Shown here piece by piece: positions 19,062 through 61,587 of a DNA stretch of 64,000 nucleotides (the first letter of the stretch is position 1; every line of letters starts with the position of its first letter). This DNA is from Lepidurus packardi (lineage: Eukaryota > Arthropoda > Branchiopoda > Notostraca > Triopsidae). The notes below the pieces were generated by a model. The model saw only the letters and a program-made list of their open reading frames with translations. It had not been told where the DNA came from and made no database searches. The stretch spans positions 4,510,375 through 4,574,374 of the forward strand of contig JAKZAN010000002.1 in NCBI GenBank assembly GCA_023053545.1, in the 5' to 3' direction. The translations under genes and the position numbers were made by a program.

Positions 19062-21519
19062 ATGGTCGTTTCCAAAACCAAGAAAATGGAAACCCCTCTA
19101 TCCCACTATTCATACGACCTGCCTTCAGAGGAAGAAGAACGACTTGGAAAGCTATTTGGTGACTTGGATTTTAACGGCGATGGAATTGTCGACATTCACG
19201 ATCTATCTGAAGGCTTGAAACGTCTAGGAGTTCCCGGAAACTTTCAACACGGCTATGCTCAGGTGAGTTTAGGCTCTTGAGACACACATGCTAAACTTTC
19301 TCTTTTTCAGAAATTTTTGGAACAATCTGACCAAAATCAAAGCGGTGATATAACCTTGGCCGAGTTCATCCATTATGTAAAAGAGCATGAAAAGCGGCTT
19401 AAGCTCCTCTTCTCCCATGTTGACAAAAACAAGGACGGTAGGTGTTCTTTTCCTGTTGCATAACTGAACTTCAAGTTTTATTATAGGTCGGATCGACTCT
19501 TCCGAAATTATGAGTGCCTTCAAAGATCTGGGAATTCATATAGACCGTAAAGAAGCCCTAAGTTTACTCAAACGGTAAGATTACTCTGTCCTTGAGCATT
19601 GTAACCTGCCATTAGGATGTGCGCGTGGCACATTTAGTTCAAGTATCAGTGTTTCGTTTAGCTTCTCATAATGCTTTTTGCTATGGTTGTTGTTATATGG
19701 CCTTTTCCTATTGCAGCATGGAAAATTCACAGAAATATCAAACAGGACGGAGAAAAAGTGCGAACGGCCGATGGTGGGTAAAAAATGTGTCAGCTTAACC
19801 TGTGTTTTAGATTTTAAATACTCAGGATACACCTTTAGTTCCGTGTTACATAAGTCTCTTATCCCGCTAATGATCGTACCCTTGAATCCCACGTGTAATC
19901 GTAGCTTGACTGTCTTTCTTTACCTCCCTGTTGGGTCCTTAGATATAATTACCTCGACTCAATACTAATTAGCTCAAATTTGCGCCTGTGTTTCTAGCAT
20001 GGACCGACAAGGAACACTCGAAATCAGCTTTGATGAATGGCGAGACTATTTATTATTCCATCCCACGGCTGACCTACAAAGCATTATCCAGTATTGGCGA
20101 CATTCCACGGTAAAGAAAAAATAAATAAAAAATCTTCCTTCAGCTACTTTTTTTGTACGGGATCTAGTTTGTACTTTGCTTTACTCTTGCTGCACTTTCT
20201 ATGCCTTCCTTTTAGTTACGGATTCCGTATACGGTAAATGATTAGGTGTAAGGTGTCGTGGCAAATTCTGGGATTGGCTTACCACTTTTACTCTCATGTC
20301 TGTGTTTTATAAGGCTCCTTATATGTTGCAGTATATGGACGTCGGTGAAACAACCGCGGTGCCCGATGATTTTACCCTGCAAGAAATGCTATCTGGCATG
20401 TGGTGGCGACACCTGGTAGCGGGGGGCGTCGCCGGGGCTGTTTCACGTACTGCAACTGCACCGTTGGATCGTCTCAAAGTGTTCCTGCAAGTCCATGGCC
20501 TGAACCACTTTGGATCGCTCAAAGCCTGTTTACGTCATATGTACCAGGAAGGAGGCATGCGCAGTTTATGGCGAGGTAACGGTATCAACGTTCTAAAAAT
20601 CGCTCCGGAATCGGCTCTGAAGTTCATGGCGTACGAGCAAGCCAAACTAGCAATCCGAGGCAGTACCGCACGAGATCTATTGTTATACGAACGGTTTGTG
20701 GCAGGGTCTCTAGCGGGTTGTTTCTCACAAACGTTAATCTACCCCTTGGAAGTCCTCAAAACGCGATTAGCCTTGCGGACAACGGGGCAATACAAGGGGA
20801 TTTGGGATGCGGCAACCAAGCTTTACGCTAGAGAAGGATTCGGGGTGTTTTTTCGAGGGTACGTGCCGAATCTGCTGGGTATCATACCCTACGCAGGCAT
20901 TGATTTGGCTGTATACGAGGTAAAAGATCGCAAGATCCATTTTCAACCAATTTTAAATTAAATTTTTTAAAAAATTGATGGATTCGAAATCGATTGATTA
21001 AAAAGCGAACGATAAAAAGTAAAAGATCGATTTTAATTATTATTATTATTTAAATAGACATTGAAGAAATCATGGCTGGACAATCACTCTGGAGGAGATA
21101 AACCTACGGTTTGGGTTTTACTGGGTTGCGGTACCGTGTCTTCCACCTGTGGGCAAATCGCCTCGTACCCACTCGCGCTAGTGCGAACGCGTTTGCAAGC
21201 TGCGGGTAAGTTTTTTGTTGGCTTGGTTTGAATTTTTTTTTTAGTAATAGCCTTGGTTGTGAATATAGCTCAGTTAAAAACTTCTATTCCTGCCACGGCA
21301 GCTATTGCGACGGGTCCCACGCCCACGGGAACAACCTCGGCCTCGCAACAAGTACCTTTGACGATGACGTCGGTATTTCGAAATATTATAGCGACGGAGG
21401 GACTGCCCGGACTGTACCGAGGCATCACACCGAACTTTATGAAAGTGGCGCCCGCGGTTTCCATCAGCTACGTAGTCTATGAGCATTGTCGGCAAGCCTT
21501 GGGAGTCACAATGACGTGA
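19062..21519 (+). CDS. Calcium-binding mitochondrial ATP-Mg/phosphate carrier (SCaMC, SLC25A24/25/23 type)
   Basis: Seven exons: 19062-19262, 19311-19437, 19487-19574, 19998-20109, 20332-20919, 21058-21205, 21269-21519; 504 residues, phases consistent. The N-terminal third has EF-hands: [36 protein letters not shown] and a degenerate fourth ([17 protein letters not shown]). The C-terminal part is a six-helix mitochondrial carrier with the three signature motifs PLDRLK, PLEVLK and PLALVR. In this family the EF-hands sense cytosolic calcium and gate exchange of ATP-Mg for phosphate across the inner mitochondrial membrane. ATG at 19062 is the first in frame; a second at 19086 would remove eight residues. 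The last acceptor is the one at 21267-21268, which continues the frame as AQLKTS. Confidence 0.95.
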
Positions 21520-31900: not shown

Positions 31901-34900
31901 ATGTCATGGGAAGGCGAGTTATCAGACCACGAATTCCATCCTGTGGCTGTCGCGAATGGAAACCACGTCCATTTGAATCAAAACGGGATCAAAATGGAGC
32001 CCCTGGACATTGACGTGGCGGCGGAAGAAAAAAGCGCCGAACCGGGAGATGACCAAGTGGTCGACATGGAAGGCGTCCAGTCTGTGGGTCCTTGTAGTCC
32101 GCAGCCACTATCATCCGTTCATCCGACGCATCATGCTTTGCACAATAACCTCGTCAATGGACACATCTTGCCCCCTGGCGTTCTCGCGTACACGGCGCCA
32201 ACCACACCGCAGACGTCTCGACATGAATGGGAGCATAGCAATAATAACAAGTATTATGATAACAAGGTAATACTTTACGCATTCCATGTTTCTAGATTTT
32301 ATTCTTTTTTTCCCACAAATCCAACGTCTTTTTTAATACTGTATTTAATAGCTCATTGCTACACCAAGTCTACATTTAAGGCTCCCGTGTACCCTACCTT
32401 TAGCTTATTGATGGAAAGAATCACAGATGGCGCTGACGTTTGTCCTTTTTTTTTTCCCGAAAGCTTTGGGTAAAAAAAAAGAAGAAAATAAATAGATAGC
32501 TAATTGCCGGCACAGTTTCTACGCTTGTCTTGCTTCTGAAAAGTACAATTTGTTATCACAGTTTGCAGTAGTAGCACAATGTTCCAAATCAACTCGTCAA
32601 ACTTTCTCGAAAACGGCTTGTCATATTTGATAGCAATCTAAAACAAAAGTTTTCTTTGGGTACTAGCTAGTGCACAATCAAAGGAGATTTTTAGGTAACG
32701 TATTTCTCATAGTTGCAAACTTCATTTGCATATTGCTAAGTTATTACTTATTGGAAAGAAATGTGCATTGGTTGTGTACTACCTGTTAGCAAACTCAAGC
32801 TTACTGTCAAAGACTTTTTTCATTAAATGTACTGGTTTTTTCAAAAAGGTGTTCCGTAATACCCCGTGCTAACCCCCTATAGCGAGCCTTCAGCTGTTTT
32901 CTCTTTGAAAGAAAAACGTTAGGAAGTATGAATGAATTCTAATTTTTAATGTATTAATTTTTAGGGTGAATTACGCCGTCCTTCTTGCCGTAGCCCTGTC
33001 AATATCGTCCCAACGCCTCGACTGCCGTGTCCGCAGTACACATCGGAAGTATTAGGCGGTCCCACCCCGCTGCCCAGTCCGCTACCCACGCGTCATCCTA
33101 CCCGGTTACCTTTAGCTCATCATCCTCCCACTCCGTCACCCGATTCCGCCATTCACTCCGCCTACTACTCGCCTACTGCGTCACCAGGCCAATCCCGGCA
33201 TCGCTCTTCCTCGGGTTTATCGTCCCCATACTCGCATAGAGCTTCGCCGTCCTTGTCTCGAAACAACTCGGATGCTTCGCAATACTCACAATACGGCGGC
33301 TCGGGGTCGCAGTACAGCTACAGTTCGGCGCCCTCGCCCTTGTCCCCCTCGCCAGCTCAGTCGCCAGTACAACCCCGGCACATGGCCATCTTAGCTGCCG
33401 CCAATGGGTTTCCTTCACCAGTCATGGGACGAGCAGGAGCGGGTCTTCATGTCGAGTACCCACCCTCGCCTTTACTGCTTCGACACCATGGGAATTATCC
33501 TGGGGCTTCTTCAGCTAGCCGCGAAATGGAAATCAAGGCAGAAGCGGGAGTTACCTTAAGTGGTAACGGTAATCCTGGTGCCAGTTCATTGTCCAATGAC
33601 ACAGGTGCGTGTCTTTTGAGCCCAATCATCCATCGTTTTCATAAATTCACGCTGCATTAGCTTACAGTTGGAAAGTTTTGGCTTCCTTTTTATTCTTATT
33701 TATTATGAACATAGAAGATGGTTTTTGATCACTTGATTGATTTTGTCATACATTCCTTTTCCCGTAGAAGACAGCAGTCGCGAAGGGTTGATATTGGACG
33801 ACAAAGGTTGTCCAACGGCTTCGGATTTATCCCAGCATTCAGCCATGTCTGCTCAAGCGGGGATTTCCAGGCAGCAGTTGATAAACAGTCCGTGTCCCAT
33901 TTGTGGTGACAAAATCTCCGGCTTTCACTACGGCATCTTCTCTTGTGAGTCCTGCAAGGGCTTCTTCAAACGCACCGTCCAGAACAAGAAAAATTACGTA
34001 TGCTTAAGAGGAGCGGCGTGTCCCGTTACCATTGCCACGCGGAAAAAGTGTCCCGCTTGTCGATTTGACAAATGCTTGACGACAGGCATGAAGTTGGAAG
34101 CGATCCGAGAAGATCGCACCCGTGGAGGCAGAAGTACTTACCAGTGCACGTACGCACTGCCACCGTCAGTCCTCAGTCCCAATGACACGAGTTCCAGTAG
34201 CAAAAGTGGTTGTGCTGAAGCCAGTGGCAGTGGACGATCCATGGATGACTGGGGACCTGGCAGTGCCATCGCTGGCGCTCTTAAAGAAGACACCAAACGC
34301 CCAATTCCTATCCCACCTTTATTACTAGTAAGGACATTGTTAACCTAATCTCAAGTTTTCCTTCGTTCGTCCATTTTTTCCCAGGAAATAACCATAGATT
34401 TCATTGATTTTAGAAGAGAAAATCTCGTTTAATTTTTTTTATAAATTAATTTTTAACGTTTGTTTCAGGAAATAATCGGTGTAGAGCACTTGTGGAATAC
34501 GCAAGAAGGCGAAGGCCGCTCTGAACGACGTCCAGCGCCGGTTTTACCTCCCAATCTTCCCTCCAACGATCCCGAGTACCTGGCTTCTCTCTGCAGTATG
34601 GCTGACCATAGACTTTACAAAATTGTCAAATGGTGTAAAAGTTTGCCGTTATTCAAACACATCCACGTGAGTATAAGCATAATTTTGTTTGAAGAAGATA
34701 GCAGAGAATTAACTGGGATTTCTTTCTACCTAGATTGACGATCAAATCTCGTTGCTCATCAATACGTGGTGTGAATTGCTCTTGTTTGCGTGCTGTTTTA
34801 GGTCGATTCCCACACCTGGTGAAATTCGTGTTTCTTTAGGTAAAATGGGTAGCATCTACTCGTAAACGCTTAATAGATTGGGATCAATCCAAGTAAAATA

Positions 34901-37921: not shown

Positions 37922-38578
37922 TCAAATAATTTTGACTAGGAATTGGGCTTTTTCTTCGAGCGTTGAAGCCGGGAGAAGGGTCGCACCCCGGACAGTTATG
38001 TCTAGGTGCCTAATTTCCTTTTTGACGACGAAACCATTCGTGAGCATGGCCTTGCACGAGTAAGGGCTGGTAGCAATGCTGGCGGCTAGCTTGATACCGA
38101 GGCTTTCCGCTACTTCTATGGAATGGGACACTAATCGAGTCGAAATGCCGCGACGACTGTAAGCGGCGGCCACTCCCAGGAAAGAGAGCTCGAATATTTT
38201 GTCTACACCGTACCGTTCAAACATATTGCCCTCGTCGGCTGCCATGGCCTCCCCATGTTCCACATTAGCCAGTCGTGCTAGGCTCATGTGTGGCCATTGC
38301 TGTTGTTCACTCAAGGAATCCGGTTTAGCGATGTAATTAAGGCAAGCACCTGCGATAGCACCGTTGCTTAGATCTAAAGCCACTATGGAAATGCTTTCTT
38401 CCATCCAAGACTGGTATATCTGAGCGTCCAAGTTTCGCTGCAAGGCAATGTCACCGTTCTCGCCTGATCCGACGTAGATCGATTCACGAGGTATAAAGTC
38501 CGCGAACAGAAAGTCCAGCACTGACTGATAGTGCTTGGGCTCTAATTTCGTATAACTTATTCCATTTGATTCACCCAT
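37922..38578 (-). CDS. AANAT-like N-acetyltransferase (divergent copy)
   Basis: Single-exon ORF of 218 residues from the first in-frame ATG (38576-38578; the frame is open further upstream but without an ATG). It has the GNAT fold pattern of arthropod arylalkylamine N-acetyltransferases: an N-terminal YQSVLDFLFADFIPRES helix, a central strand ALDLSNGAIAGACLN, and the acetyl-CoA loop region LSFLGVAAAYSRRGISTRLV. Such enzymes transfer acetyl from acetyl-CoA to amines such as dopamine, serotonin or other substrates in cuticle and amine metabolism. The substrate cannot be told from sequence. It is clearly more divergent than the three tandem copies at 40.1-42.9 kb, which lie on the same strand. 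Confidence 0.85.
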   Translation of the reverse strand: MGESNGISYTKLEPKHYQSVLDFLFADFIPRESIYVGSGENGDIALQRNLDAQIYQSWMEESISIVALDLSNGAIAGACLNYIAKPDSLSEQQQWPHMSLARLANVEHGEAMAADEGNMFERYGVDKIFELSFLGVAAAYSRRGISTRLVSHSIEVAESLGIKLAASIATSPYSCKAMLTNGFVVKKEIRHLDITVRGATLLPASTLEEKAQFLVKII

Positions 38579-40067
38579 GGCAAATAGGAACAGAGAGAAG
38601 GAGTCCTGAGTTCCATGCACTACACAGCGTGCTACTGGCTTAATTCGTTCTGCAGGATGGTTTAATTCAGCCGAGTTCAGATTCTAGCAAAGAAACAATG
38701 ACCTTGGCGTTTGCACATGCGCCAAGTCCTACAGGACGGACGTTCTAAGCACATATAATTACAATCAGATGAAAGCCTATTCTTTCACAACTTTCCTACA
38801 ATTGAGTACTATTTCGAGATGAGGTAAAGTAAACTTTTACTAGATTTTAAATCAATGATGTATTCATAAACTCGTCTGTAGGAAAGTCTTGAAGACTGGA
38901 ACGACATTACGTATGGATGTCTGGGCTTTTATCTTTGACAGGCTGGTTAAAACCCAGCTTTTTTAGGAGGTGGATTTAGCAAGGATGTGACCTTATCAAG
39001 GCACAGAAGCCACTTTCTATCGCGTGGGTAATTCTAAGGAGAGCAAGTATTTTGGGAGATCAAGGGCTCGGCCTTGATCAGATACTTTCGCCCCTAGAAC
39101 ATATATATGACCTCTTTTCTAGTTCGCCAAGTTGTGATGCAGCATAGAATTCTGCTAGAACTCTGAGCCCATTCCGGAACAATTGCAGAGCTGTTCATGG
39201 CAATAAGTAGGTCAATTAATGCAGATTCCAACCAAGTCATTGGCTTCGCGTAATGCTACTCGCGGTAATCCTTTGGCCGTGTGATTATAATCCAGTTTGG
39301 GAGCTGGTTTGGCATCAATCCAAGTGTTTAGATAAGTGGTCCTGATAAATTATTAAACTATTAAATATATTAATATAATATTAGGGATTCACTGGTGTTT
39401 ATAATACACTGAAGAGGAACCTGTAAGAATTTTTTCCATAGCTGCAGAAATGTTTAAGCTGCCGGACCAGTGGTGTGTCGTAACCAGGTTAAGTTCTAAT
39501 GGCAATTCGTAAGTGAAAGTTCTATTGGACCTTAGTCTGTAAGTAAAGAATACGACAAAGAAATGGAAATTAATGCCTACGAAAAGATTTAGCACGTTTC
39601 TGAACACAGTTTCTCGAAGTGCAGGTAGTATTGAGAGCTAAAACGTATTAGATCTCTAGAGAGAAATAGCAATGGTCGTCAGGTTTAGCTTTTGGTAAAT
39701 CGAGGGAACCTAATATCCTTTGTTTCTTAGGAAGTTTTCAGTGAAGATTTGTGAAAAATGTGCTTAAACTAAAAACTTCAAAACCTAAAACCAACTCAAA
39801 CACTTTACCCAGTCCCTGTAATTCGGAAATATCTTATCCCGCTTCTAAACTTGTTAGGAACTGCATAGTGAAATAACATAAGAAAACCCGATGATTTGCG
39901 AAGTGTCCCTAAATTTAACACGACTTGAGTTGACTGATTGTATTATCAAGGACACATTGCTCGAAGTGTGTGCTAGGAAGTTTTATTTTATACCTCACGT
40001 AAACTTATTAAAACGAAGTCTGGAATGGAACTGTATTTTCAAGCTATTTCCAACATTCAAGCTGTAT
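38579..40067. other. Spacer between acetyltransferase genes 1 and 2
   Basis: Apart from the acetyltransferase relic at 39669-39878, I see no gene. Sequence around 39.55-39.63 and 39.90-40.06 kb resembles the flanks at 41.96-42.03 and 42.10-42.23 kb. Duplication in this cluster therefore carried flanking DNA along with the genes. Confidence 0.5.
39669..39878 (-). pseudogene. Relic of an AANAT-like gene
   Basis: Minus-strand remnants match two parts of the neighbouring genes. 39669-39735 resembles their last 22 or so codons, and 39784-39878 resembles the segment around GHDIFKLHGVDKVFE. The roughly 150 bases that should separate them are mostly missing, and the frame is broken. Confidence 0.6.
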
Positions 40068-40703
40068 TTACAGTACTTTCACAAAAAACTGGCAATGGTC
40101 CTCAGGTTTAGCTTTCGGTAGACCGGGGAAGCCCAATACTTGTTGTTCCTTGATAAGGGTATATTGGAGTTTTTTAAAGATGTGCGTAGTAGCAGGATTT
40201 GTAGCTATAGTTTTGATCACCCGGAATCCATTTTCATGAGCTAATTCTTCCGAGTGTTTGCTCAGTTCTGCAGCAATACCTCTCTTGCCATAACTTTCTA
40301 AAACACCCAAGAACAACAGCTCAAACACTTTGTCCACTCCGTGTAACTTGAATATATCATGTCCTTCTCCTAAACTTGATAGGAACTTCATCATGGGGAA
40401 ATAACTAGGATCGACCCTTTTAGTAACATCCTCGTCTTGGTCTTCAGGTTTGCTCAGCGCGTTGACACAAATTCCTACCAATTTTCTGTTACTAGAGTCG
40501 ATAGCCACGTAAGATAGTCCTTTGTTTAGTTGGTCGTGGAAGTATTTAATTTCGCTGTTATTAGTCCCTGATGTAGGTTCACATCCAAGGGAACGATTTA
40601 CGGATTCCCTAACAAAGAAATCATTGTACAGGAAGTACAGTATAGAATCGTGGTATTCTGCACTTGCACGGATATATTCAATTTTTCCTCCTGCTGGGGA
40701 CAT
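40068..40703 (-). CDS. AANAT-like N-acetyltransferase, tandem copy A
   Basis: Single-exon gene of 211 residues starting MSPAGGKIEYIRAS. The acetyl-CoA binding region LFLGVLESYGKRGIAAELS lies at about residues 130-148, with the RGIA turn replacing the classical Q/RxxGxG/A. YVAIDSSNRKLVGICVNA forms the central beta hairpin. The C-terminus ends CQFFVKVL, shared by all three tandem copies. The start was chosen because the three copies align exactly at this ATG; the open frame extends a little further without an ATG. Activity and substrate are inferred from family only. Confidence 0.88.
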   Translation of the reverse strand: MSPAGGKIEYIRASAEYHDSILYFLYNDFFVRESVNRSLGCEPTSGTNNSEIKYFHDQLNKGLSYVAIDSSNRKLVGICVNALSKPEDQDEDVTKRVDPSYFPMMKFLSSLGEGHDIFKLHGVDKVFELLFLGVLESYGKRGIAAELSKHSEELAHENGFRVIKTIATNPATTHIFKKLQYTLIKEQQVLGFPGLPKAKPEDHCQFFVKVL

Positions 40704-41151
40704 GATTACCAATGAACTGTTCCTGGTTGCAACGGACTTTACTTCGACAATCTCAGCTCACTGCGTTGGCAAGACTGTTACGTAGGGCTGACGTGCTCGC
40801 TCTACAAAATGGTGTAAGGCGAGACCTTGGGATATTTTTCATAACCATTGACTGCGTATAACTTCTATTTAGCCGAACTTTGATGTAAATCTTAGAATGT
40901 CGTAGAGAAAAATCTCTACATACGGTTTCATATGAAACCCCATCGAATTTGAATTCAGTGAGTTGGAAACTTTTCCATAATTAACGATTGAGCTAATTGC
41001 AAGAATGACTTTTCTGATCAACAATACAAACTATTATGTGAAGAAAGTTTGGTGGACGCTTTTGAACTTGTATGTTAGTCTTATTAAATGTTTGTAGGGT
41101 CAAAATGAAGTTTGGAATGCAAGCTGTATTGTCAAGCAAGAACATTTACAT
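40704..41151. other. Spacer between acetyltransferase copies A and B
   Basis: No gene seen. It contains the 5' flank of copy A and the 3' end of copy B. Its right part resembles sequence near 43.2-43.27 kb, consistent with duplication of gene plus flank. Confidence 0.5.
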
Positions 41152-41790
41152 TTACAGTACTTTCACAAAAAACTGGCAGTGGTCTTCGAATTTAGCTTTC
41201 GGTAGACCGGGGAAGCCAAATACCTGTTGTTCCTTGATAAGAGTATATTGGAGTTTTTTAAAGATGTGCGCAGTAACAGGAGTTGTAGCTATAGTTTTAA
41301 TCACCCGGAATCCCTTTTCACGAGCTAATTCTTCCGAGTGTTTGCTCAGTTTTGCAGCAATACCTCTGTTTCCACAACTTTCTAATACACCCAAGAACAT
41401 CAGCTCAAACACCTTTTCCACACCGTGTAACTTGAAGATATCATATCCTTCTTCTAAATCTGATAGGAACTTCAGAATGGGGTAATAAGTAGAACCAACC
41501 ATACGAGTAGCGTCGCCGTCTTGGACTTCTGGTGTGCTCAGCACGTTGATACAAATTCCTACTAATTTTCCGTTGTTAGTGTTAATAGCCACATAAGATA
41601 GTCCTTGGTTTAGTTGACTGCGAAGTTGTTCCTTTAATTCACTGTCGTTAGTCTTCGATTCAGGTTCCCAATCAAAGGAAAGAGTTAAAGCCTCCCTAAC
41701 AAAGTAGTCGTTGTACAAGAAGTCTAGTATCAAATTGTGGTATTCTGCACTTACACGGATATACTCAATTTTTTCTTTTGCTAGGGACAT
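41152..41790 (-). CDS. AANAT-like N-acetyltransferase, tandem copy B
   Basis: Single exon, 212 residues, aligned with copies A and C over the whole length (MSLAKEKIEYIRVS at the start, CQFFVKVL at the end). The acetyl-CoA loop reads LFLGVLESCGNRGIAAKLS. It differs from the others in the variable segment around residues 35-60, which is the region expected to help shape the amine pocket. Head-to-tail arrangement on the minus strand suggests origin by unequal crossing-over. Confidence 0.88.
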   Translation of the reverse strand: MSLAKEKIEYIRVSAEYHNLILDFLYNDYFVREALTLSFDWEPESKTNDSELKEQLRSQLNQGLSYVAINTNNGKLVGICINVLSTPEVQDGDATRMVGSTYYPILKFLSDLEEGYDIFKLHGVEKVFELMFLGVLESCGNRGIAAKLSKHSEELAREKGFRVIKTIATTPVTAHIFKKLQYTLIKEQQVFGFPGLPKAKFEDHCQFFVKVL

Positions 41791-42232
41791 GATTTCCAAT
41801 GTAGGCCTATTGGTCCTGGTTGTAATGAAAGGCTTTACTTCGACAATCTCAGCTTACTGCTTTGGCAAGACTGTTTAGTAGGAGTGACAGGCCCGTTCTC
41901 AGGAACGGTGTAAGGAGAGACCTTGAAATTTTTTTTTTAGAAAATCGACTGCGGAACTTTAGTTGTTTAAAACAAAAAGTTGAAATTAATGCCTGTGAGA
42001 AGACTGAGCATGTTTCTGCACACAGCCTCTCGAAATGCAACAACTTTATCCACTCCCTGGAAATCGAAAATATCGTATCCCGCTTTTAACCTTGATAGGA
42101 ACATAAGTTGACTGATTGTATTTTCAAGGATCCATTGCTCGAAGCTTAAGTTAGGCAGTTTTATCGTAGGCCTATTAAAGTTTATTAAAAGGAAGTTTGA
42201 AATACAAGCTGTATTTTCAAGCTAGAACACAT
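41791..42232. other. Spacer between acetyltransferase copies B and C
   Basis: Apart from the relic at 42040-42103, no gene is seen. Its parts resemble the spacer upstream of copy A (39.55-40.06 kb), supporting repeated segmental duplication. Confidence 0.5.
42040..42103 (-). pseudogene. Short AANAT-like relic
   Basis: Minus-strand similarity to the segment of the neighbouring genes around GHDIFKLHGVDKVFE and the upstream FLS.LEE stretch. It is only about 60 bases long, with no surrounding coding sequence. It corresponds to the right part of the relic at 39784-39878. Confidence 0.5.
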
Positions 42233-42871
42233 TTACAGAACTTTCACAAAAAACTGGCAATGGTCCTCAAGTTTAGCTTTCGGTAGACCGGGGAAGCCAA
42301 ATACTTGTTGTTCCTTGATAAGAGTATATTGGAGTTTTGTAAAGATGTGCGCAGTAACAGGACTTGTAGCTATAGTTTTAATCACCCGGAATCCCTTTTC
42401 ACGAGCTAATTCTTCCGAGTGTTTGCTCAGTTCTGCAGCAATACCTCTGTTTCCATAACTTTCTAATACACCCAAGAACAACAGCTCAAACACTTCGTCC
42501 ACTCTGTGTAACTTGAAAATGTCATGCCCTTCTTCTAATCCTGATAGGAACTTCATTATAGGGTAATAAGTTGAACGGACCATTTCAGTAATATCCTCAG
42601 CTTGGTCTTCAGGTTTGCACAGCACGTTGAGACAAATTCCTACCAATTTTCCGTTGCTAGAATCAATAGCCACGTAAGATAGTCCTTTGTTTAGTTGGTC
42701 GTAGAAGTATTCATTAACTTCGCTGTCTTTAGTCTCCGATGTAGGTTTACATTCAAGGGAACGATTTAAAGTCTCCCTTGGAAAGTAGTCATTGTCCAAG
42801 AAATCCACTACGGAATCGTGATATTCTGCACTTGCGCGGATATATTCAATATTTCTACCTGCTGGCGACAT
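42233..42871 (-). CDS. AANAT-like N-acetyltransferase, tandem copy C
   Basis: Single exon, 212 residues from the ATG that aligns with copies A and B (MSPAGRNIEYIRAS). The acetyl-CoA loop reads LFLGVLESYGNRGIAAELS; the end is CQFFVKVL. Copies B and C share long identical stretches in the second half of the gene, so they separated late or have undergone conversion. The open frame continues upstream to 42913 but only to a GTG; I did not use it. Confidence 0.88.
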   Translation of the reverse strand: MSPAGRNIEYIRASAEYHDSVVDFLDNDYFPRETLNRSLECKPTSETKDSEVNEYFYDQLNKGLSYVAIDSSNGKLVGICLNVLCKPEDQAEDITEMVRSTYYPIMKFLSGLEEGHDIFKLHRVDEVFELLFLGVLESYGNRGIAAELSKHSEELAREKGFRVIKTIATSPVTAHIFTKLQYTLIKEQQVFGFPGLPKAKLEDHCQFFVKVL

Positions 42872-43322
42872 AATTCCAAATGAATTGTTCCTCGTTTTAA
42901 CGAAGGACTTCACTTCGACAGTCGCCGCTCACTGTGTTGGCAAGACTGTTGTGCAGGGCGTGATTTGTTCGTTCTGTGAAACAGGATAAAGGGGAGACCT
43001 TGAGATTTTATAAGAGTCGTTGACAGCGTAAGTTTGGTTTAGCAAAACCTTTGATGCATATCCTAGAGTGGCGTAGAGAAAAATTCGTGCATTCGATTTC
43101 ATATGAAAACGCGTCATAATTTAGGCTTTGAATTCGGTGGTTTGGAAACTTGTTTTAGATTTAACGATTGCATTTATTGCCAGAACGAGTTTTTGATCAA
43201 GAATACAATCTATTATGCAACGAAAGTTTGGTAAACGCTTTTGAACTTGTGTGTTAATCTTACACGTTTTTAGGATCAAAACGGAAACCTAGAGAACGAG
43301 AATGTATAATTTGTTAACCTTT
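42872..43322. other. Spacer between HEI10 and acetyltransferase copy C
   Basis: Both neighbours are transcribed from the minus strand. No gene is recognised. It should contain the HEI10 3' end and the copy C promoter. Confidence 0.45.
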
Positions 43323-49130: not shown

Positions 49131-52100
49131 CTAATTGACGACAGCCGACGTAGCCATCATGTTTACACCACACGTTCCATCACCTCGGAAAACCCGGTAA
49201 TAACCCTAAGAAAATACACGTTCCAGTATTTTCTCAATGAAAACCTTTCTTATGAAGAAAAAACTTACTTGCTCACCCCAGCTACTACCCCACGAGTTTT
49301 TGACAATCCAATACGGTAGAGTCTTCTTAAAGAGTGGATATTCTTTTGAAAAAAAGAAATTTAACAATTAGACATAACTTCTTGCATACTTCTTAAGGTA
49401 TTACCTTTGACTCCATACCCAACGATCAATACTCCATGGTCAATACTCTTAGCATTACAAAGGAACTTCCATGGGTGAGAAACGCCCCCATTGTAGAACT
49501 ACAAATAATTAAAAAATACTTAATACCTCAGCTTCATATGCTTTGCTTGCGATAGCATACTTGCATGGCATTTGCATTGATACCAATCGAAATGGGCCCA
49601 TTAGCCACCAGCCATTTCGCCATTTCAGTTTCATCCTGAGAAATTTCCACGGAGCCAGTAACTTGAACAGTCGCCGTTTCTGGTTTGATGCGACATTGGT
49701 CATCTTTGCCTTCGTACGGATAGTCTTCTTCAGTTTCTAAACCGCCTAACTCTTGAATGGCTTTGTATGCATTCTCGGGCAATCCGCCGTTGCAGCCCTG
49801 GTCCAATTTATCGCAATCCACCAGTTCTGATAAGGATACAAACAAAACTTGTTAGTACTACGAATGGCAAACAGAAGAAAATTGCAAACTTCACCTTGCT
49901 CGGATAGCGAGTATAACTTATTGTGCTTCACCGCATAAAGTCCTTCCACATTTCCCGTAACAGAGTAGGCCCAGCAGCTGCCGCACATGCCTTGGTTCTT
50001 CACAGGTGTGACGACGTTGTATGTTCGCCAATCAAACTCGTCAGGCAGAGTAATATTCGGAATAACAGCCTGATCCACAATATGATTTCCCTTCAGATCA
50101 GGACGGAAACCCGTGTAAAACGTACGAAACTCCTCCTCTACACCATAAAAAAACAACCCTAGTGAGTGAACGGAACTCCACTTGACACAAACTGAATTAT
50201 ACCTGTCAAATCCGAAAATTCAGTGTCACCGTACTGAGCAGTGCCTTGTTCATTCTCTTGCATGTATTGGATCCTTTCTTGGTTGACCCTATAGACATGG
50301 TATCTGTGCTCGAACTCTTCCATTGTAGCGTAAACTTTCCTAAACTTGGCCAAAAAAACCCGGAAGGCCTCCATGTAGTACAAATGACCCGTATCCTCCT
50401 CGACCGCTTCCTACAAAGAATTAAGCTGGATAATTTACCAGACCCATGTATGTATTTAAATGCGTGCTGTAGTAAATACGTAACAAATAATATGCCCAAT
50501 GCTAAAAAAGACAAAACAGGACAGGACTCAACGTGCAGAAGCGAATAAACACACACATAACAAAACAAAAAGTGTTTAAATACGCAGACAACGTCACAAG
50601 TAAATAAATACTAGACAACGTCACAAGTAATAACACGGGCTGCAGAAAGCCAACGGACTAAACAAGCTGAAAGGGACAATAACGCAAATAACAAAACGAA
50701 ATGTCTTTAAATAAGAAAAGTAACAGTTTAAGGGCTTACACGTTTACGACGAACTGGTGCACAAGATACACTCGTCACCTTACGAATTCCGGTCCATGGC
50801 TGGTCATAAACTGTGATGTCACACTCTTCAACAGGCTATAAAGAGTACTTGTTATTACTGTGCATCCTTTTGTATAAAAAAGAAATCGACTTACGCAGGA
50901 TTTATCACAACTTGTGGGGCTGACAAGCAGAATCATTTTGTAGTTTATTCCAGAGACAAGCTATATTGAAATATTGAAGAGAATGATTTAGTTGTACGCT
51001 CAAGGTTACAATTGATTGATTTACTTGTGTTTGTACGGATTTAACCTCAACCACTCTAACGCCTACGTTCCCGTTCCATCGCAAAAATCTTACAGCGAAA
51101 TCAGCCATGGTTTTCACTTCGGGATCTTTGGGATTACCTGCAGATAATCCGCCAAATATCTGACGAGCTACTCTCGAGGGTTTCTTTTTCTCGCCGTGTC
51201 GTCTCTACAAAAACATAAATGTTACAATGTTAATCCAATATAAATATGGAAGAAATGCTATCATTTCTTAATACCGCTGTAGGTTCTTCGCATTTCAAGC
51301 TAGTAACTCGGCGATCGTTCAACCAAGGACGGTCCCAGATTTTGACACGGCAAACTTGTTTGGTTCGAGTGCGATCTACTTCGCAATTGGCGTTCGCGCT
51401 TCCTTTGGTGCAATTGCTGTAACCCACCTCTAACGTAAGTCCAATATTCTTTCCCGAAACCACCTTAAATAGACAGTTTAAGAGGAATGAATTAGCAGTT
51501 TAGAGCGAAGTTTACCTGAGAAGTTGCTTCCCTGATTTGGGTAAGCACTAAATGTTGCTGATCATTGGATTGCGCGTTAATTTCATTCAAAGCAAATGTG
51601 GCGTATTCCTGGATGTCTGGCGTTGCAACACCAACCGAACTGGCCGCTCCTGCTCGAGCGCCGCCTTTGCGGGCAGGATTCTTCTTCCCCTTGTTCTGAT
51701 GTCAAAAACAATATACAAGCAAATCTCTTACAATGAATGTTTTTTCCGCATTTTTCTATTTACCTTGGGGTTGTGCCTGGCTTTCGGTTTAGTCGAAGCG
51801 CAGCTAAGATCCGTCACTTCTTTCTTGTTAAGCCACGCTTGCTCCCAAACAACAACTTGACAGTACTGGCCTCCTCTTCTGTGCTCTGCTTTGCAGTCGT
51901 TAGTGTCGCTAGGAGTGCAATTGGAAGTGCTGACTTCGATTAGCAAGTAATATTTCAAACCAGAAACAACCTTTACAGAATAGACGAGAAAAACTGTTAA
52001 AAATGCCGAAAGAATGTTACGAAAATGCCGAAATTTTTACCCGGGTAAAGGCTGTGTGGGTTTTAACCAAATGGAGAGGATTGGGGGCATTTGAGCGCTG

Positions 52101-55100
52101 GTTGATGACCGGAACAGCGAACGCAGACATTTCTTGAACTTTGGGGTCATCGATAGCAATTGACTTCAAGGAAGTATTGGGGGGAGTTGACTCTGAAGAG
52201 CGGATCGGTTCTACGTTCTAACAATCCAAAAATTCGTTAATTATTTCTCAATATTTCCCCATTTTTTTCGCACCCTTTTTTTCCTGCTGCCTGAAGCCGA
52301 GCACTTGACTTCAGAAACTTTGCGCGTCTTAGTCCATACTTGATCAAAAACGACAACTTCACACACTTGATTAGGCTAGGTAAGATTAAAGGGAATTAAA
52401 GACAATTGGAAAATTAGTAATTATTAACGTACTCCTTTGCCATTAACTGAGCCCAATTCTAAAGTCAGATAGTAATTCGTGCCAGCAACGACTTGTGTTC
52501 TAGCTTGTTTAATATTGACCAGCTTCAGACCACCTGCTTGGTTTTGCTGCGCAGCGATGGCCGAAGTAGCAAATTGAGCAATTTCCCGAACAGCTGGATC
52601 TGCAGGGTTAGCTGGCGAAAGACCGCCCACTAGACGCTGTGGGACTGATACGGGTGACGGGCCAGCTCCAGAACGGGCGTTTTTGGCAATCTACAAACAG
52701 TAAACTGTAATTATATATGTTCAATACAATGTATTATACATACCCTAGCTCCAGTTCTGGCAACCGAGCACTTTATATCGGAAACGTTACGTGTCTTAGT
52801 CCATACTTGATCAAAAACGACAACTTCACACACTTGATTAGGCTAGGTAAGATTAAAGGGAATTAAAGACAATTGGAAAATTAGTAATTATTAACGTACT
52901 CCTTTGCCATTAACTGAGCCCAATTCTAAAGTCAGATAGTAATTCGTGCCAGCAACGACTTGTGTTCTAGCTTGTTTAATATTGACCAGCTTCAGACCAC
53001 CTGCTTGGTTTTGCTGCGCAGCGATGGCCGAAGTAGCAAATTGAGCAATTTCCCGAACAGCTGGATCTGCAGGGTTAGCTGGCGAAAGACCGCCCACTAG
53101 ACGCTGTGGGACTGATACGGGTGACGGGCCAGCTCCAGAACGGGCGTTTTTGGCAATCTACAAACAGTAAACTGTAATTATATATGTTCAATACAATGTA
53201 TTATACATACCCTAGCTCCAGTTCTGGCAACCGAGCACTTTATATCGGAAACGTTACGTGTCTTAGTCCATACTTGATCAAAAACGACAACTTCACACAC
53301 TTGATTAGGCTAGGTAAGATTAAAGGGAATTAAAGACAATTGGAAAATTAGTAATTATTAACGTACTCCTTTGCCATTAACTGAGCCCAATTCTAAAGTC
53401 AGATAGTAATTCGTGCCAGCAACGACTTGTGTTCTAGCTTGTTTAATATTGACCAGCTTCAGACCACCGGCTTGATTTTGCTGCGCAGCGATGGCCGAAG
53501 TAGCAAATTGGGCAATTTCCCGAACAGCTGGATCTGCAGGGTTAGCTGGCGAAAGACCGCCCACTAGACGCTGTGGGACTGATACGGGTGACGGGCCAGC
53601 TCCAGAACGGGCGTTTTTGGCAATCTACAAACAGTAAACTATAATTATATATGTTCAATACAATGTATTATACATACCCTAGCTCCAGTTCTGGCAACCG
53701 AGCACTTTATATCGGAAACGTTACGTGTCTTAGTCCATACTTGATCAAAAACGACAACTTCACACACTTGATTAGCCTAGGTAAGATTAAAGGGAATTAT
53801 AGACAATTGGAAAGTAAGTTAGTAATTATAAACGTACTCCTTGGCCATTAACTGAACCCAATTCTAAAGTTAGATAGTAATTCGTGCCAGCAACGACTTG
53901 TGTTCTAGCTTGTTTAATATTGATCAGCTTCAGACCGCCTGCTTGGTTTTGCTGCGCAGCAATGGCCGAAGTAGCAAATTGGGCAATTTCCCGAACAGTT
54001 GGATCTGCAGGGCTAGCTGGCGAAAGACCGCCCGCATAATTATCGATGGTTGTAGGTGATAAGTGAACAATTTCAACATATGGTGGACCAGCAGGTTTAA
54101 TACCGTCAAGCAAATCAAGGCGCTTCGAGCACTTCACATCGGAAAGATCGCGTGTTTGAGTCCACGGTCGATGAAACACGACAACTTCGCAAACTTGATT
54201 GTCCTAAAACAACGCAAAAACAAATTGTAGAGTAAGATCTTAGCTGAAATTGTAGATAATGAAACATACATCGTTGCCATTAACGGAGCCTAATTCTAGG
54301 GTCAGAAAGTACTTCCAGCCGGCCACAACTTGCTTTCTAGCTTTTTGGATCTTGATCAGCTGCAGACCGCCCTTTTGGTTTTGCTGAGCTGCAATCGTTG
54401 AAGTGGCAAACTGAGCTATCTCCTTAACACTTTCATCATCTACGGCAACTGCGTGAATACCACCCAAGAATGGTGGAGAAGACACCACCTACAAAATCAA
54501 AATCTTTTGAACTTGGTTTTTAATCATTTTCGCGTTTACTAATTCCGCTGCAATCGCATCAGCACGTCCCTGACGTCCGTATTGGTGAGCTACACCTGGG
54601 ATGGCATGGCACTCTACCTCCTGGACTTCACGAGTTGACGTCCCTGGCTGCTCAAGTACTTTTACGTCGCAGATTTGCCGGGGCTATTCGATAGATGATA
54701 TCATTTAAGTTAGCTCCTACGATTCAGTTGCAATTTACTTTGTCAGGATTCACTTCACACGAATCAACTTCTGCACCCTTGGCACACGAGGTAACGCCTA
54801 CTTCGAGATTCAAACGATAAAGTATCCCTGACACAACCTAAACAAGAAATGTATTATAATATAGGATGTAACGTGGAATTAAGTCTTTACTTGTTTGGAA
54901 GCGTGGTGGACACGAATAACTTTCAACACTTGCGCATCATTCGACTGCTGGTTGATTCCGTTAATTGCTACTGGCAACAAGGTCTGAATTTCCTCGGCAT
55001 CAACGTCAATCGGTACAGGTGAACCAGGAGGAGCGTTTCTATAGTCAACACTGGCTACCTCTAGTGCTGCCTTTACAAGAGGTATACCAACAGATTCGCA

Positions 55101-58100
55101 GCTCATCTGCGTAATTTCACGGGAGTTTAACCACGGCCTGTCCCAAATTTGGACTGTACATGTTTGACGAGGCTAAAAACAGAAAAAAATAAACAGAAAA
55201 AGAAGATTTTTTGGGTAAGCAATAGAAGAACAGGCGGTAAGTTCAAGTACCTTATTGTTATCGATTTCACACGGACCATTTGCAGCTTCTTCAGATCCGA
55301 TTGTACAATTTGTTTGTCCCAAGACCATCTTTAACGTCACAAGCTGTCCTTCAACAACCTACAGGCAATTTCCAATTCAAATTAAAACATTACAACTAAA
55401 TATAAATCTAAATTAAACATTTTCTAGAACATACTTGAGTCGTGGCTGAAAGCACTTCAACCAACTTCAACGTATAACCGGAATTCGTACCAGCTTCTAT
55501 GCTAGGAAGCGTGAATTGGGCATATTCTTGAATTTCCGGTGACTGGACATCGGCTTCTGTAATTCCGCCATTGCCCGTTTCACCGACAATCTCCTTAACT
55601 TCTTCTTTGTTGAAAACGAGAGGTACAGTACCACCGACAATCTCCCTAACTTCTTCACTGGCCACCCCTAGTGCCGCCTTTACAAGAGGTATACCAACAG
55701 ATTCGCAGCTCATCTGCGTAATTTCACGGGAGTTTAACCACGGCCTGTCCCAAATTTGGACTGTACATGTTTGAAGAGGCTAAAAACAGAAAAAAGAAGA
55801 TTCTTTGGGTAAAAAACAGAAGAATAGGCGGTAAGTTCAAGTACCTTATTGTTATCGATTTCACACGGACCATTTGCAGCTTCTTCAGATCCGATTGTAC
55901 AATTTGTTTGTCCCAAGACCATCTTTAACGTCACAAGCTGTCCTTCAACAACCTACAGGCAATTTCCAATTCAAATTAAAACATTACAACTAAATATAAA
56001 TCTAAATTAAACATTTTCTAGAACATACTTGAGTCGTGGCTGAAAGCACTTCAACCAACTTCAACGTATAACCGGAATTCGTACCAGCTTCTATGCTAGG
56101 AAGCGTAAATTGGGCATATTCTTGAATTTCCGGTGACTGGACATCGGCTTCTGTAATTCCGCCACTGGCCGTTTCAATCTCCGTAACTTCTTCTATGTTG
56201 AAAAAGAGAGGGACCCCAACAGCCTGACAGTCTATTTTGGTAATCTCCCGCAATTTCAACCACGGCCGATCCCAGATCGTGACAGTGCAAGTTTGGCGAT
56301 GCTGAAATTTTTTTTATTTTTATTTTTCGAAGTCAACCTTGGCAAGTTATAATAGATTTAGATACCTTGTCGCCATCCAAATCACACGGTCCATTTACAG
56401 CTTCTTCGGAAGCAATCGCACAATTCGTTTGACCCAAGACCATTTCTATGGTAACGCTCTTACCAGCAACAACCTGGAGCCAAATTTCAAAAACTGCATA
56501 AAAAAATTTAAACAAATCTTCTAGAGAAATACTTGGGTTGTTGAAGATAGGATTTCCACCAACTTCAATACGTAACCAAAATTGTACTCAGCTTGTACGT
56601 GGGGTACAGCAAATTCAGCATATTCCTGAACTTCAGCTGATTCCGAGTTCGTTTCTTGGATTCCACCAGTAACAATAGCTTTAACTTCCTTTGGAAAGAC
56701 TTCGCGAAACAAATTGGGAGTCGCATACTCAGCAGGTGCTTCTCCCACAAACGGGGATTGGTCAATGTCCTCACTTAGGCTGGATGCGCTCACTTCTAAC
56801 TCTTCGGTCTGCAAAACAGGGTAAAAGTAGTTATTACTAGCTCCACGTTCGTTTTTAATTAGCTTACCATCACAGTTTTGCAATTTAAAGATGTGACTGT
56901 AGAACTACCCTCTAAATTCTCGAAAATCCTGACATCGCAAATCTCATGGTTTTGCTTTTCATCCAAATAGCAGTTTTCTTGAGAATCTTCTCCCTTTTTG
57001 CAACCGGTGAAACCCACTTCGAGCTGTAAATCCACATTCGTACCCGCAACCACCTAGAACAACCAAAATATGCCAAATATAAATATCTAATAACATTTAA
57101 TATTAGAAATCTATAAATAGAAATATCTAGTAATTCTTAATATCAGAGTTAAACATAAATATAAAATCAAACTTCAATGCTAGGAAAGTCTAAAATGAAA
57201 TAATAATATGAATGTCACAAATTTTTTCCATAAATAAAAATATTACTTCAAAATTAAATTTAAAAAAAAAAAACAATTATTACAAAAGTATTAATTATAA
57301 ACTTTTAGTTTTCTTAACGTTAAACACACCAGGCAACAGGCGAAAGCCTACGCCTTAACACACTGAAAAAACATTAATTAAGTATATCAAAGATGGCGAA
57401 ATCTAAGAAAGCAGCATTTATACTTGTGTTTTGGCCGATATGATTTTGACCAGTATGCCAGCTGATTCGCTGTTGCTTTGGATGTTAAAATGCTCTAAAG
57501 CGATCTTGGCATAACTTTGGATTGATTCTGACTCAGGGTCGACCACTTTCCAGCCTCCCAAAGTAGGACGAATAGGTTTCGGTGGGAGGATGGCAGAAAC
57601 ACTAAGCGAGACTGGCTTTTCCTGGACAGGAAGATCACTTAAACGCGCTTCTCTCACAGGAGCTTCATTCGAATCCAGGACAGGTGGTACGGAAGTCTGC
57701 ATGCATTCTACGCCCAAAACTTGGGTTAAATTGCGCCAAGACTGCTCCAAAACTTCCACGACGCATACTTTGCTGGTGTCCAAGTTAGGAACGCATTGCT
57801 CCTCAGCTTCGCCTTTCTTGCAATTAGTTTGGGCAATCTGAAGAGTCAGTTCGTACTTGATGCCTGCTACCACTTGGGCAGTTGCTTTCTTGACTTCGAC
57901 AATAGCTTGTTTGGTGGGTTCGTTGGATGTTGCTTCCATGAAACTGAGCGCAAATCGGGCCAATTTTTGGATCTTGGGGTCTTGTACGTTGGCTTCCTGA
58001 GGGCAACCAGTGCAAGGCCCGGTATTCGCGGTAATTTCAGACTTGCCTTCGGCTCCTTCATCTTCGAGGCCGTTGCCTTGAACTTCTCCAGAATCTTCAG

Positions 58101-59523
58101 TAGATTCCTCTGCCTCGGGCTCGAATAGCGGTTCTAGTTGTGCGACAATGGAAGTTACATTGGTGGGCTGGCAGGTCAAGTCCGAAAATAGAAAGGCATC
58201 GGCAACCCAAGGCCACTGGATCACGGTAACATCACATACAAATGTATCGCGATCCGGATCCAAGTTGCATGTTTTGGGTTCGTCCTGCTCTTCTTGCTCC
58301 AAATCCGGTCGCTTGATGCAAAAACTGGATCCCAAACCCAACCGTAGACGGCTATCTCGGGTCCCAGAGTCCAATGACACCTTTGAACCAATAGGAATGA
58401 GTGGCAGGTTAACTTTTTGGCTTAATAACTTACCACAGTTCGAAGAACTTTCGATCCCAAGAGCTTGAGCTTGAAATTGGACTGGAATTCGACATCAATT
58501 TGACCATAGGCAGCTAACACTGCCGTTCTTACGTGGGGAGCTGAAAGATCTTCCTGAAGGAACTTTTGCAAGCCCAATCTCTCTGCCTCGTCTTCATCGC
58601 CGGTGCTAAAACAACGCAAAGACCGCAAAATTGGCTCCACTTTGGTTGGAACGTCAGTTGAACCGGCTTCTGTAAAAACAGGAACTTCTTCCATGCTCAC
58701 TTCGCATATTTCATGCGAAACCTGACTCGTGGCTGAGCCAGACGTTTGGGTAGTAATATTCAAAGCCAGATAGTAAGTCACAGTATCCGAGTCCTATAAC
58801 AAGAAGAGAGAAACCAAGTTATCAAACTGCACATTTACAGATATAGAAACTTACCGATAGCCTTTTCGCACTTTCTATTCTGATCAGGTTATGTTGACCG
58901 CTGGTTTTATTCATCATTTGCGCTAAAGCTTCCTGGGCTACAGCGACCAACGCCGGGTCATCAAGAGGCACGCTGTTGGCGATTGTCGTCCCCACGAATG
59001 CGAGTTCATTGCTACTTTCTTGGCTAGCACATGCAATTTTGCCTGGAACGAGGCTACGACGTTTAGCCCATGGTTCGTCGGCCACAGCTACTTCGCAGAG
59101 CCTTACGTATGTGGAATTGGTTTCATCACAAGCCAGAACGTGACTTGTGTCATTGTTGCATTCCAAGCTGAGCTCCAATGTCAAAAAATAGAATGCTGGC
59201 TGTAAATACAAACATTTCAAGCGTTACCTACAATGATATGACTTGCGCAAAAAGTACTGCGTTGCAATTAATCATAATCTTACGTGTGCGGGAGGGTTAG
59301 GCGGCACGTACTGCGCATCTAATATTCTCTGTAACATCCAGGCTCCTCCGTCAATCGAAGGATCGACGATATCATTCGAAACAAGAGTGCCAGCTGCAAA
59401 TTCGGCTAAACTTTGCAAATAAGGATCACCTGCTTCCAGATCTGGTTGTTGGCTACTTTCAGCTTTTGTGGCCAAAAACACAACCAACGAAATAAAAGTT
59501 ATAAAAACCGCTTTATGTCCCAT
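49131..59523 (-). CDS. Secreted multicystatin-cathepsin F polyprotein (17 cystatin-like domains plus papain-family protease)
   Basis: 36 minus-strand exons from 59284-59523 to 49131-49205; all junctions GT-AG and in phase; 2,547 residues. A signal peptide ([17 protein letters not shown]) is followed by 17 cystatin-like domains, each with EYA.F-type helix, QVVAG loop and C.V.V.D..W..C end. Domains 1-3 have degenerate QxVxG loops; 4-16 mostly keep QVV[AS]G or VVEG. Domain 17 ends VRRKR. Then come a cathepsin F propeptide ([28 protein letters not shown]; exon 50203-50410 into 49895-50137) and a peptidase with [13 protein letters not shown] (Cys25), [17 protein letters not shown] (His) and [11 protein letters not shown] (Asn), ending [13 protein letters not shown]. 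All catalytic residues are present. Protease exons: 49895-50137, 49561-49826, 49405-49498, 49269-49342, 49131-49205. A tobacco hornworm protein with several cystatins fused to cathepsin F is a known parallel. Processing is inferred. Confidence 0.92.
52328..53728 (-). repeat. Three 467-bp tandem units, each encoding one cystatin domain
   Basis: Each unit holds a 258-bp exon (52433-52690, 52900-53157, 53367-53624) and a 99-bp exon (52744-52842, 53211-53309, 53678-53776), together 119 codons, so the reading frame is kept. By eye units 1 and 2 are identical, introns included, and unit 3 differs by only a few bases. A fourth, more diverged relative continues to about 54080. Together they encode domains 11-14. 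Confidence 0.92.
55071..56310 (-). repeat. Second tandem duplication in the cystatin gene, about 0.6-kb period
   Basis: Exons 55435-55779 and 56029-56301, and the 108-bp exons 55251-55358 and 55845-55952, encode nearly the same domain ([38 protein letters not shown]). The offset is 594 bp for these parts and 607 bp for the exon starting CCTCxTCAAAC, because of a 13-bp intron length difference. The copies correspond to domains 7 and 8 and are older than the 467-bp set. Confidence 0.85.
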
Positions 59524-61587
59524 TTTGGGAGCTGCACTTTATGTTATTGTTATAAAGAACAGCTATGTTTGTTTGGATTATTTTTTTGTCAACAAGTCAC
59601 ACTCTACAACTTATCGTGACGGCTTCTCAACGACGACTGAAGCGAACCAGGCGGATACAAGGACTTTTACGCCCGAGTTCGAATCTCATGCTGTATAGCG
59701 TCTCCTCTTTGGCCAGCGTTTAACCGTATCCTGTAAGAAAAAAATCCCTGCCCTGTATTTATACCATCCTAATGAAAATCAACAAGTTTGTTGGGATTCG
59801 CCCAGAACTCAAAACAAGGGTCCGGTTTTCTCCAGGAAACCCATCATTTAAGTTCTCAGAAAGCAACAAGAATAATAAAACAAACCGAACTACTTGAAGG
59901 AAACTGACATTATTACTCCAGACAAAGCTGCTAAAGGATTCAAACTTACCAGGAAATATATCAGTGGACCCCCTAATGCGAAGATCACCTTGAACCTTCG
60001 CGGCGAACTCCCACGGACAACTCTTCTTTCTTAACACATGAAGATTTTCTCTCATGCACCTATCGGATCTTTTTTGTGCGTTTTCTGCATAATGTAGCGA
60101 ATGACCCTTTTCAAGACGTTGACCTGGGTTAATTTGCATGTTTGGTAGTAAGTGGCGGATTCCTGGCGAAGGGCAAGGTCGGGTTAATGAAGGACCAACG
60201 TTGAAAGAAGCATATTCGCTAAGAAAGGTCACCAAGTGATATAAAAAGATAAGCAAATGTAAATAAAAGGAGTCCAGTTTTGGACAGTAAAGGAAATACA
60301 GCATTTGGAAAAGGCGAACCGCGACAATAACTACATGGCCCTTAGACCTCCCAGGACATGTTTTAGGACAACCAACGCAGACAAGGAAAAAAACAAAAAA
60401 GATGCTGCTGTCATGCTACACGCTATTTTCTTCGGCTGTTGTTGCCAAGGCCTCAGACAAAGTACCAAGGCCTTGTGCTATACTCACAATGTCATACAAA
60501 ATTAGGAAGGGCAATGACAAGTACCTTGAAGACATGAAGAGTATCTCACGTAACTTTTTCCCGCTTTTCAATACTACATAGCTCTTACACTACTGAGGAT
60601 GGTGAGCATGTAGGAACTGCTGAAATAAAAGGGAAATTTAAAGAAAGTACGGCTTTTCGTTTTGACATGAACTCCTTTCAGTTTTATTCAAATATGGCTT
60701 CAAGATGTACTTCCATGTGCCATACACACTGGTCAACGAACATATGCCCAGAGTAAGCTACGTAAACATTTTGGTTCGCGTTGTTTCCCATACGCGTTTA
60801 TGTTATTTCTCGAACATACAGCCATACACACATATGATTAAATCGACAGACGTCAGTCAATGACTCAACGCTTCACGAGTGTTTCTTTTTTTTTCTTAAA
60901 GTGGGACATTTCAAGGATATACTTCCTTTTCGTTGACTTAAGCATTATGAAAATCAGCTTTCCCTTTTACCAGCAAAATGCGGTTCGCTGAGTTATCACT
61001 GACCTCACCTTCCTGTCCATAAAAATCTAGGCGTTTACCACACAAATCGCTTAAGAAAACACTAAAAAAAAATTACCAAATCAGAATAAAAACAAAGGAT
61101 ACATACATGGTAGCAAGAACTCTTGTATCGTCTTCTGGTGAGATTAGTTCACCTTGGCCCTGAATGCGTGTGATCAATGATCCTACCCTGTGGGATCCTC
61201 ATGCTTGCAACTTTCTTCTTTCTTTGCGGTGCAGACTAGATTGTTATCATGTAGAGCTAACACTGGTTTATCTCAAGTGCAGCATTCTGGTGTGAATTTA
61301 TTTGGTTTTATGTGGTCAATGCACCATGCACTTGCTTTTTAAGTACCTCTTGATCTTCGCAACCACACAACCTTGAATTTTTTAAAAGTTCAAATGAACA
61401 TTACATGATAACATCACTATTTCATATTTGTTTTATGATCATGGTAGGGAGGGAGCCATGTGTGAGATGAATATTTTTATTTCGCTTCCAAAGTTGTACA
61501 GTCTACTTCTAGCAAAACTGGAAAGGCTTCCATACATCTAAAATAAAAAAACGAGTCTTAAAAACCACGAAGGGTCGAATGATTAGA
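59524..61587. other. Spacer between the cystatin-cathepsin gene and d4
   Basis: Both neighbours are on the minus strand. No coding region is recognised; a 181-codon open frame at 59759-60304 has no family features. The right end includes the d4 3' UTR, with TTTATT (minus-strand AATAAA) at 61477-61482. Confidence 0.45.

Follow-up and report, generated by a model that had tools for sequence, protein, structure and literature searches.

The window, a 64,000-nucleotide stretch of Lepidurus packardi DNA, contains on its minus strand a gene whose coding span runs from an ATG at 59523 to a stop codon ending at 49131. In silico splicing of its 36 exons gives a precursor of 2,547 amino acids with zero internal stops, in which 17 cystatin-like domains (D1 to D17) are followed by a cathepsin propeptide and a papain-family catalytic domain. 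Residues 1-22 (59458..59523, minus strand) form a hydrophobic leader which, judged by eye from the sequence, is a putative signal peptide. A TATA-like sequence, a pattern match only, lies about 240 bases upstream of the ATG on the same strand (59755..59763, low end approximate). Elsewhere in the window, the plus strand carries a tubulin gene (17039-18328), a mitochondrial carrier gene (20242-20961), and two nuclear-receptor DNA-binding exons of the zf-C4 type (13199-13942 and 33737-34348), which we take to be HR4/NR6-like and HR39-like. Four acetyltransferase-like open frames stand in a row on the minus strand at 37922-42928. The three of them that were scanned all touch the GNAT family (PF00583), one just under the curated cut-off, and the four frames are presumably arylalkylamine N-acetyltransferase-like.

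Exon boundaries were fixed by the flanking bases, open frames, and splice sites. The 35 introns are 51-370 bp long (median 62) and all of them are GT-AG; this uniformity was a selection criterion of the model builder and carries no independent weight as evidence. Introns 1-30, the last of which lies at the array-protease junction, are all in phase 0, and the five introns within the protease are in phase 1 (three) or phase 0 (two). A first dynamic-programming gene model with locus-trained codon usage joined several exons wrongly and lacked the final exons of the protease, and it was replaced. A break between genes at an in-frame stop before D10 was also rejected, since an ordinary 51-bp intron (54539-54489) removes the stop.

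Because spliced-frame finders can skip over stops, a homology-free spliced-ORF finder was run as a chance control. It used the same splice scoring, a free choice of start, and codon usage trained on 2,432 codons from nine further open frames in the window. On the gene strand the finder reached a score of 163 with 1,923 aa, whereas it reached 5.3 (30 aa) on the opposite strand and no more than 10.1 (66 aa) among 15 first-order Markov resamples. The part of the 2,547 residues that it does not recover rests on domain homology and splice-site reading. The gene model with a cystatin array and a protease is confirmed as real by in silico splicing. The first-pass annotation had described one gene with 36 exons, 2,547 residues, and 17 domains, and our independent model yields the same numbers, the single transcript being a prediction.

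In the Pfam scan of the full protein, Cystatin (14 stretches), Inhibitor_I29, and Peptidase_C1 all exceeded their curated cut-offs. A layout of 17 cystatin-like units is possible, and Pfam accounts for 14 of these. When ten of the 17 domains were scanned singly, D4, D5, D6, D8, D9, D15, and D17 scored 32-64 bits to PF00031, and D1, D2, and D3 gave no PF00031 match even at E 1. Against a profile of D4-D17, D1, D2, and D3 scored 18.6, 12.9, and 21.8 bits, exceeding 900 of 900 shuffles of their own letters (best shuffle 8.0, from D2). A phase-0 intron directly follows the Q of QxVxG in 8 of the 14 domains D4-D17, and each of D1-D3 has a phase-0 intron at this post-Q position or, by eye, within about 3 residues of it. 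Vertebrate family-2 cystatin genes also have an intron at that position. Because the profile scores beat the shuffles and the phase-0 intron position is shared, we counted D1 (59029..59442), D2 (58611..59010), and D3 (58171..58583, all minus strand) as cystatin-like. We therefore accept a predicted set of 17 cystatin-like domains in which D1-D3 are degenerate, with D2 the weakest of the 17 putative assignments.

The QxVxG loop is kept in 13 of the 17 domains (D4-D14, D16, and D17). Some domains had been said to have lost it, and this was borne out: D1-D3 are without any QxVxG-type loop, and D15 reads RVVSG with R in place of Q, so that the loss is concentrated toward the amino end. On the minus strand, the loop is QVVAG in D4 (57703..58017, the entire cystatin domain inside exon 4), D5 (56880..57567), and D6 (56227..56676), QVVEG in D7 (55705..56172, placed by unit comparison) and D8 (55098..55578), and QVVSG in D9 (54609..55034). 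The next five domains, D10-D14, belong to a short form that has just one Cys pair. D10 (54129..54473) and D11 (53702..54041), both QVVAG, were located by the genome PF00031 search, together with the loop table for D10 and unit comparison for D11. D12 (53235..53570), D13 (52768..53103), and D14 (52301..52636) belong to a 467-bp tandem unit and were placed by repeat and unit comparison. The array ends with D15 (51800..52184), D16 (51290..51659, QVVSG, from the loop table and genome search), and D17 (50761..51168, QLVSG). A second-hairpin PW is present in 8 of the 17 domains (D1, D3, D6, D7, D8, D10, D16, and D17). Type-2 cystatins are marked by this PW and by four cysteines that form two disulphides; by cysteine counts, ten domains here have four, D4 has six, and D2 and D10-D14 have two. 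Three other Pfam matches were set aside. SQAPI (321 bits, nine stretches, over its cut-off) we take to be a relative of the cystatin fold; Porin_7 had 29.9 bits against a cut-off of 26.6, yet no single stretch passes alone; and NTF2_MEX67, with 23.6 bits, was under its cut-off.

The protease part, also on the minus strand, consists of an I29 cathepsin propeptide (50127..50365, Pfam Inhibitor_I29) and a papain-family (C1) catalytic domain (49143..50048, Pfam Peptidase_C1 and structure match). The closest solved structure to the catalytic domain is human cathepsin F (1m6d) with 280 bits, the next structure having 222, and the catalytic Q, C, H, and N motifs were all found in the alignment to 1m6d. 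Of the ERFNAQ propeptide motif, a mark of the cathepsin F subfamily, only a relaxed version is matched: the propeptide has Y where F is expected and I in place of A. Judged by its best match to solved structures, the predicted protease is cathepsin F-like, as the first-pass annotation had proposed.

The array and the C1A peptidase share one open frame in the spliced model. They are joined there by predicted splicing alone, and the joining intron (intron 30, from D17 to the propeptide, between exons 30 and 31) is among the longer ones with 329 bp. These points would suit a gene for a secreted multicystatin and a neighbouring cathepsin F gene that the model wrongly splices together, but we consider such an arrangement highly improbable. 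The joining splice is GT-AG in phase 0, and the first protease exon is without an upstream coding frame. Both ATGs in the 329-bp intron were examined for a plausible signal-peptide start exon and none was found: for one ATG the phase-0 donors are limited to GTGTTT and GTCCTG, and an exon from the other would require a 28-base intron. In addition, a genome survey reports the same type of fusion for Daphnia pulex and insects (PMC3407033). Because intron 30 holds no plausible signal-peptide exon, the sequence favours a single gene for the array and the protease.

Cystatin units in this gene were duplicated recently. Tandem Repeats Finder reported a 467-bp unit with 3.7 copies and 97% matches at 52297-54033. 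Between the D12 and D13 units there are 3 differences in 467 bases, which are all silent and lie outside the introns, and the first 365 bases of the D13 and D14 units are identical. D7 is a recent duplicate of D8; their proteins are 97% identical and most intron sequence is common to both. By a simple count, Ka/Ks is 0.14-0.48 for the five D10-D14 pairs with protein differences, and the D12-D13 pair has no protein change. The D7-D8 value of 0.87 comes from four changes only, and D6-D7 is saturated at silent sites. Exchange between array introns keeps the frame because all 30 are in phase 0. Unequal crossing-over via phase-0 introns within or between units may thus add or remove units in frame, which would account for the length of the array.

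The same near-identity of D12 to D13 and of D13 to D14 also speaks for a reading in which D12-D14 and D7/D8 were expanded or collapsed in the assembly and the true number is not 17, as the exact copy number of near-identical units is assembly-based. We regard a wrong unit count as quite unlikely. When the D14 unit was used as a DNA query against the whole assembly, it had four matching places, all inside the array, where the other copies are distinguishable with 98%, 97%, and 93% identity to it. Each near-identical copy is in frame with its neighbours. Miscounted units would, moreover, alter the number and not the nature of the gene.

The linkers have a net charge of -12 to 0 before D2-D11 and of +3 to +9 before D12-D17. 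Two furin-like candidate sites, at which cleavage may occur, were found on the minus strand: RKKR in the linker before D15 (52274..52285) and RRKR between D17 and the propeptide (50740..50751). The linkers that lead into D16 and D17 also contain paired basic residues. In those preceding D12-D14, basic residues occur only singly, with no pair and no RxxR, and the linkers before D2-D11 hold three candidate sites in all (REAR before D5, RQGR before D10, and KR before D11).

The locus is probably an arthropod multicystatin-cathepsin F precursor gene, whose product with 17 cystatin-like domains would be secreted and cut in basic linkers to release cystatins and a protease zymogen. The product would enter the secretory pathway by its hydrophobic leader, recognized by eye, with the array and then the zymogen following. 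Trypsin- or furin-like enzymes may cut the basic carboxy-terminal linkers at RKKR, RRKR, and the other basic linkers from D12 on. These cuts would release cystatins of roughly 10-13 kDa and the cathepsin F zymogen. The freed cystatins could restrain their own protease and other papain-family ones, outside the cell or in endosomes. An inhibitor precursor had been suggested as the likely role in the first-pass annotation, and we infer the same; its further suggestion of a part in feeding, moulting or defence stays speculative.

Release into single domains appears doubtful for most of the array, because there are few candidate sites before D2-D11 and no pair or RxxR before D12-D14. This scarcity of sites would also suit a precursor that keeps its entire array as a long pro-region, a polyvalent inhibitor of its own protease from which no single cystatins are freed. 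The degenerate D1-D3 suggest a structural, not inhibitory, role at the amino end, which points in the same direction. Such a protein would work like the pro-region of vertebrate cathepsin F on a larger scale, that enzyme having a single cystatin domain as against 17 here. An array that is never cut seems unlikely to us, however. The linkers that precede D15-D17 are strongly basic, and two linkers carry the sites RKKR and RRKR. Thirteen separate domains retain QxVxG, a larger number than a single protease requires, and a free 11.5-kDa cystatin has reportedly been purified from Manduca haemolymph. A two-mode precursor is a further possibility, which we put forward tentatively. In it, D12-D17, with their basic linkers and the two RxKR sites, would be released as cystatins together with the protease. 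D1-D11, whose linkers are acidic or neutral, would be kept as a polyvalent multicystatin capped by three non-inhibitory domains, and the number of active inhibitors per protease would be set by a continuing gain and loss of units at this one locus.

Related loci were searched for in the whole assembly. Nine of 11 matches to the PF00031 profile are in this gene, as are all 16 matches of a D16 query and 13 of the 14 matches of a D4 query, the remaining one having E 0.33 on a small contig. The two PF00031 matches outside the gene read as stefins by eye; stefin-like single domains lie at C3:4467776-4467934 (a large contig) and at C181:11048-11263, the latter on a 71-kb contig and within a single open frame. 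A second type-2 cystatin locus was not found in the whole assembly by an exon-by-exon search with the best candidates scored, which a divergent or finely split gene could escape. The protease query gave 61 papain-family matches, own exons included, with identities elsewhere of at most 56%. The highest-scoring matches elsewhere are on small contigs with 38-39% identity. No second cathepsin F-like locus was seen among the papain-family matches in the assembly, at the level of matches and not of gene models.

Some of the papain-family matches, on the small contigs C122, C123, C169, C180, C222, and C265, have in-frame TAA or TAG and no TGA, as would be expected of contamination by a ciliate whose stop codons are reassigned. 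On the large contigs C1, C2, C4, C5, and C6, the COX1 matches contain in-frame TGA and look like mitochondrial insertions. Stop-free COX1 on C43, C52, and C214 looks bacterial.

Water fleas and insects are already known to have a multicystatin joined to cathepsin F, and what is new here is a longer copy and the recent gain of units. The 17 cystatin domains exceed any count that we met in the literature for multicystatin-cathepsin F proteins. Among the papers listed by a literature text search there was no mention in those words of 12, 13, or 17 cystatin domains, a weak result with most subscription papers outside its reach. As the genome search turned up no further type-2 cystatin locus, this one locus would provide both a protease and the secreted inhibitors of that protease family. 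With its recent in-frame duplications, the gene is well suited to the study of how unequal crossing-over between phase-0 introns changes inhibitor dosage. Nothing established is overturned by the gene.

The Manduca precursor is said to have 2,676 aa with nine MsCPI and four cystatin-like domains, from which trypsin-like enzymes release the inhibitor. Trypsin reportedly activated the tandem inhibitor, and the inhibitor blocked its own protease. Unlike the Manduca protein, going by these domain counts, the precursor described here has 17 domains, most of them divergent. As the title of Miyaji et al. (2010) indicates, a cysteine protease inhibitor and a cathepsin F-like protease are made in one precursor in Manduca sexta, as in our gene. 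A moth fusion with fewer cystatins was the precedent named in the first-pass annotation. The architecture is indeed known, but its spread was understated. A 13-arthropod-genome survey describes multicystatin-C1A proteins with 2-12 cystatin domains from D. pulex and, with Rhodnius as the exception, from all the insects that it covers (PMC3407033). Two further papers describe four cystatin domains in the cathepsin F of Rhodnius prolixus (PMC3886914) and of Sycanus bifidus (PMC12653315). These proteins have the cystatin domains amino-terminal to cathepsin F in common with ours, with four domains in theirs and 17 here. Vertebrate cathepsin F, whose human form (1m6d) is the closest solved catalytic domain, has an N-terminal cystatin domain as well, according to reference titles. 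The multicystatin-C1A proteins of D. pulex and insects resemble ours in that a single chain contains both a tandem array of cystatin-lineage domains and a C1A peptidase, and they differ from it in having 2-12 domains instead of 17, a comparison made by description and not by sequence (PMC3407033). In the same survey, a stefin is reported in D. pulex and a mite and none in insects, and no fusion is reported in the two acari (PMC3407033). With both a multicystatin-C1A fusion and a stefin-like gene, a combination that would suit a crustacean, the Lepidurus assembly resembles D. pulex as described there.
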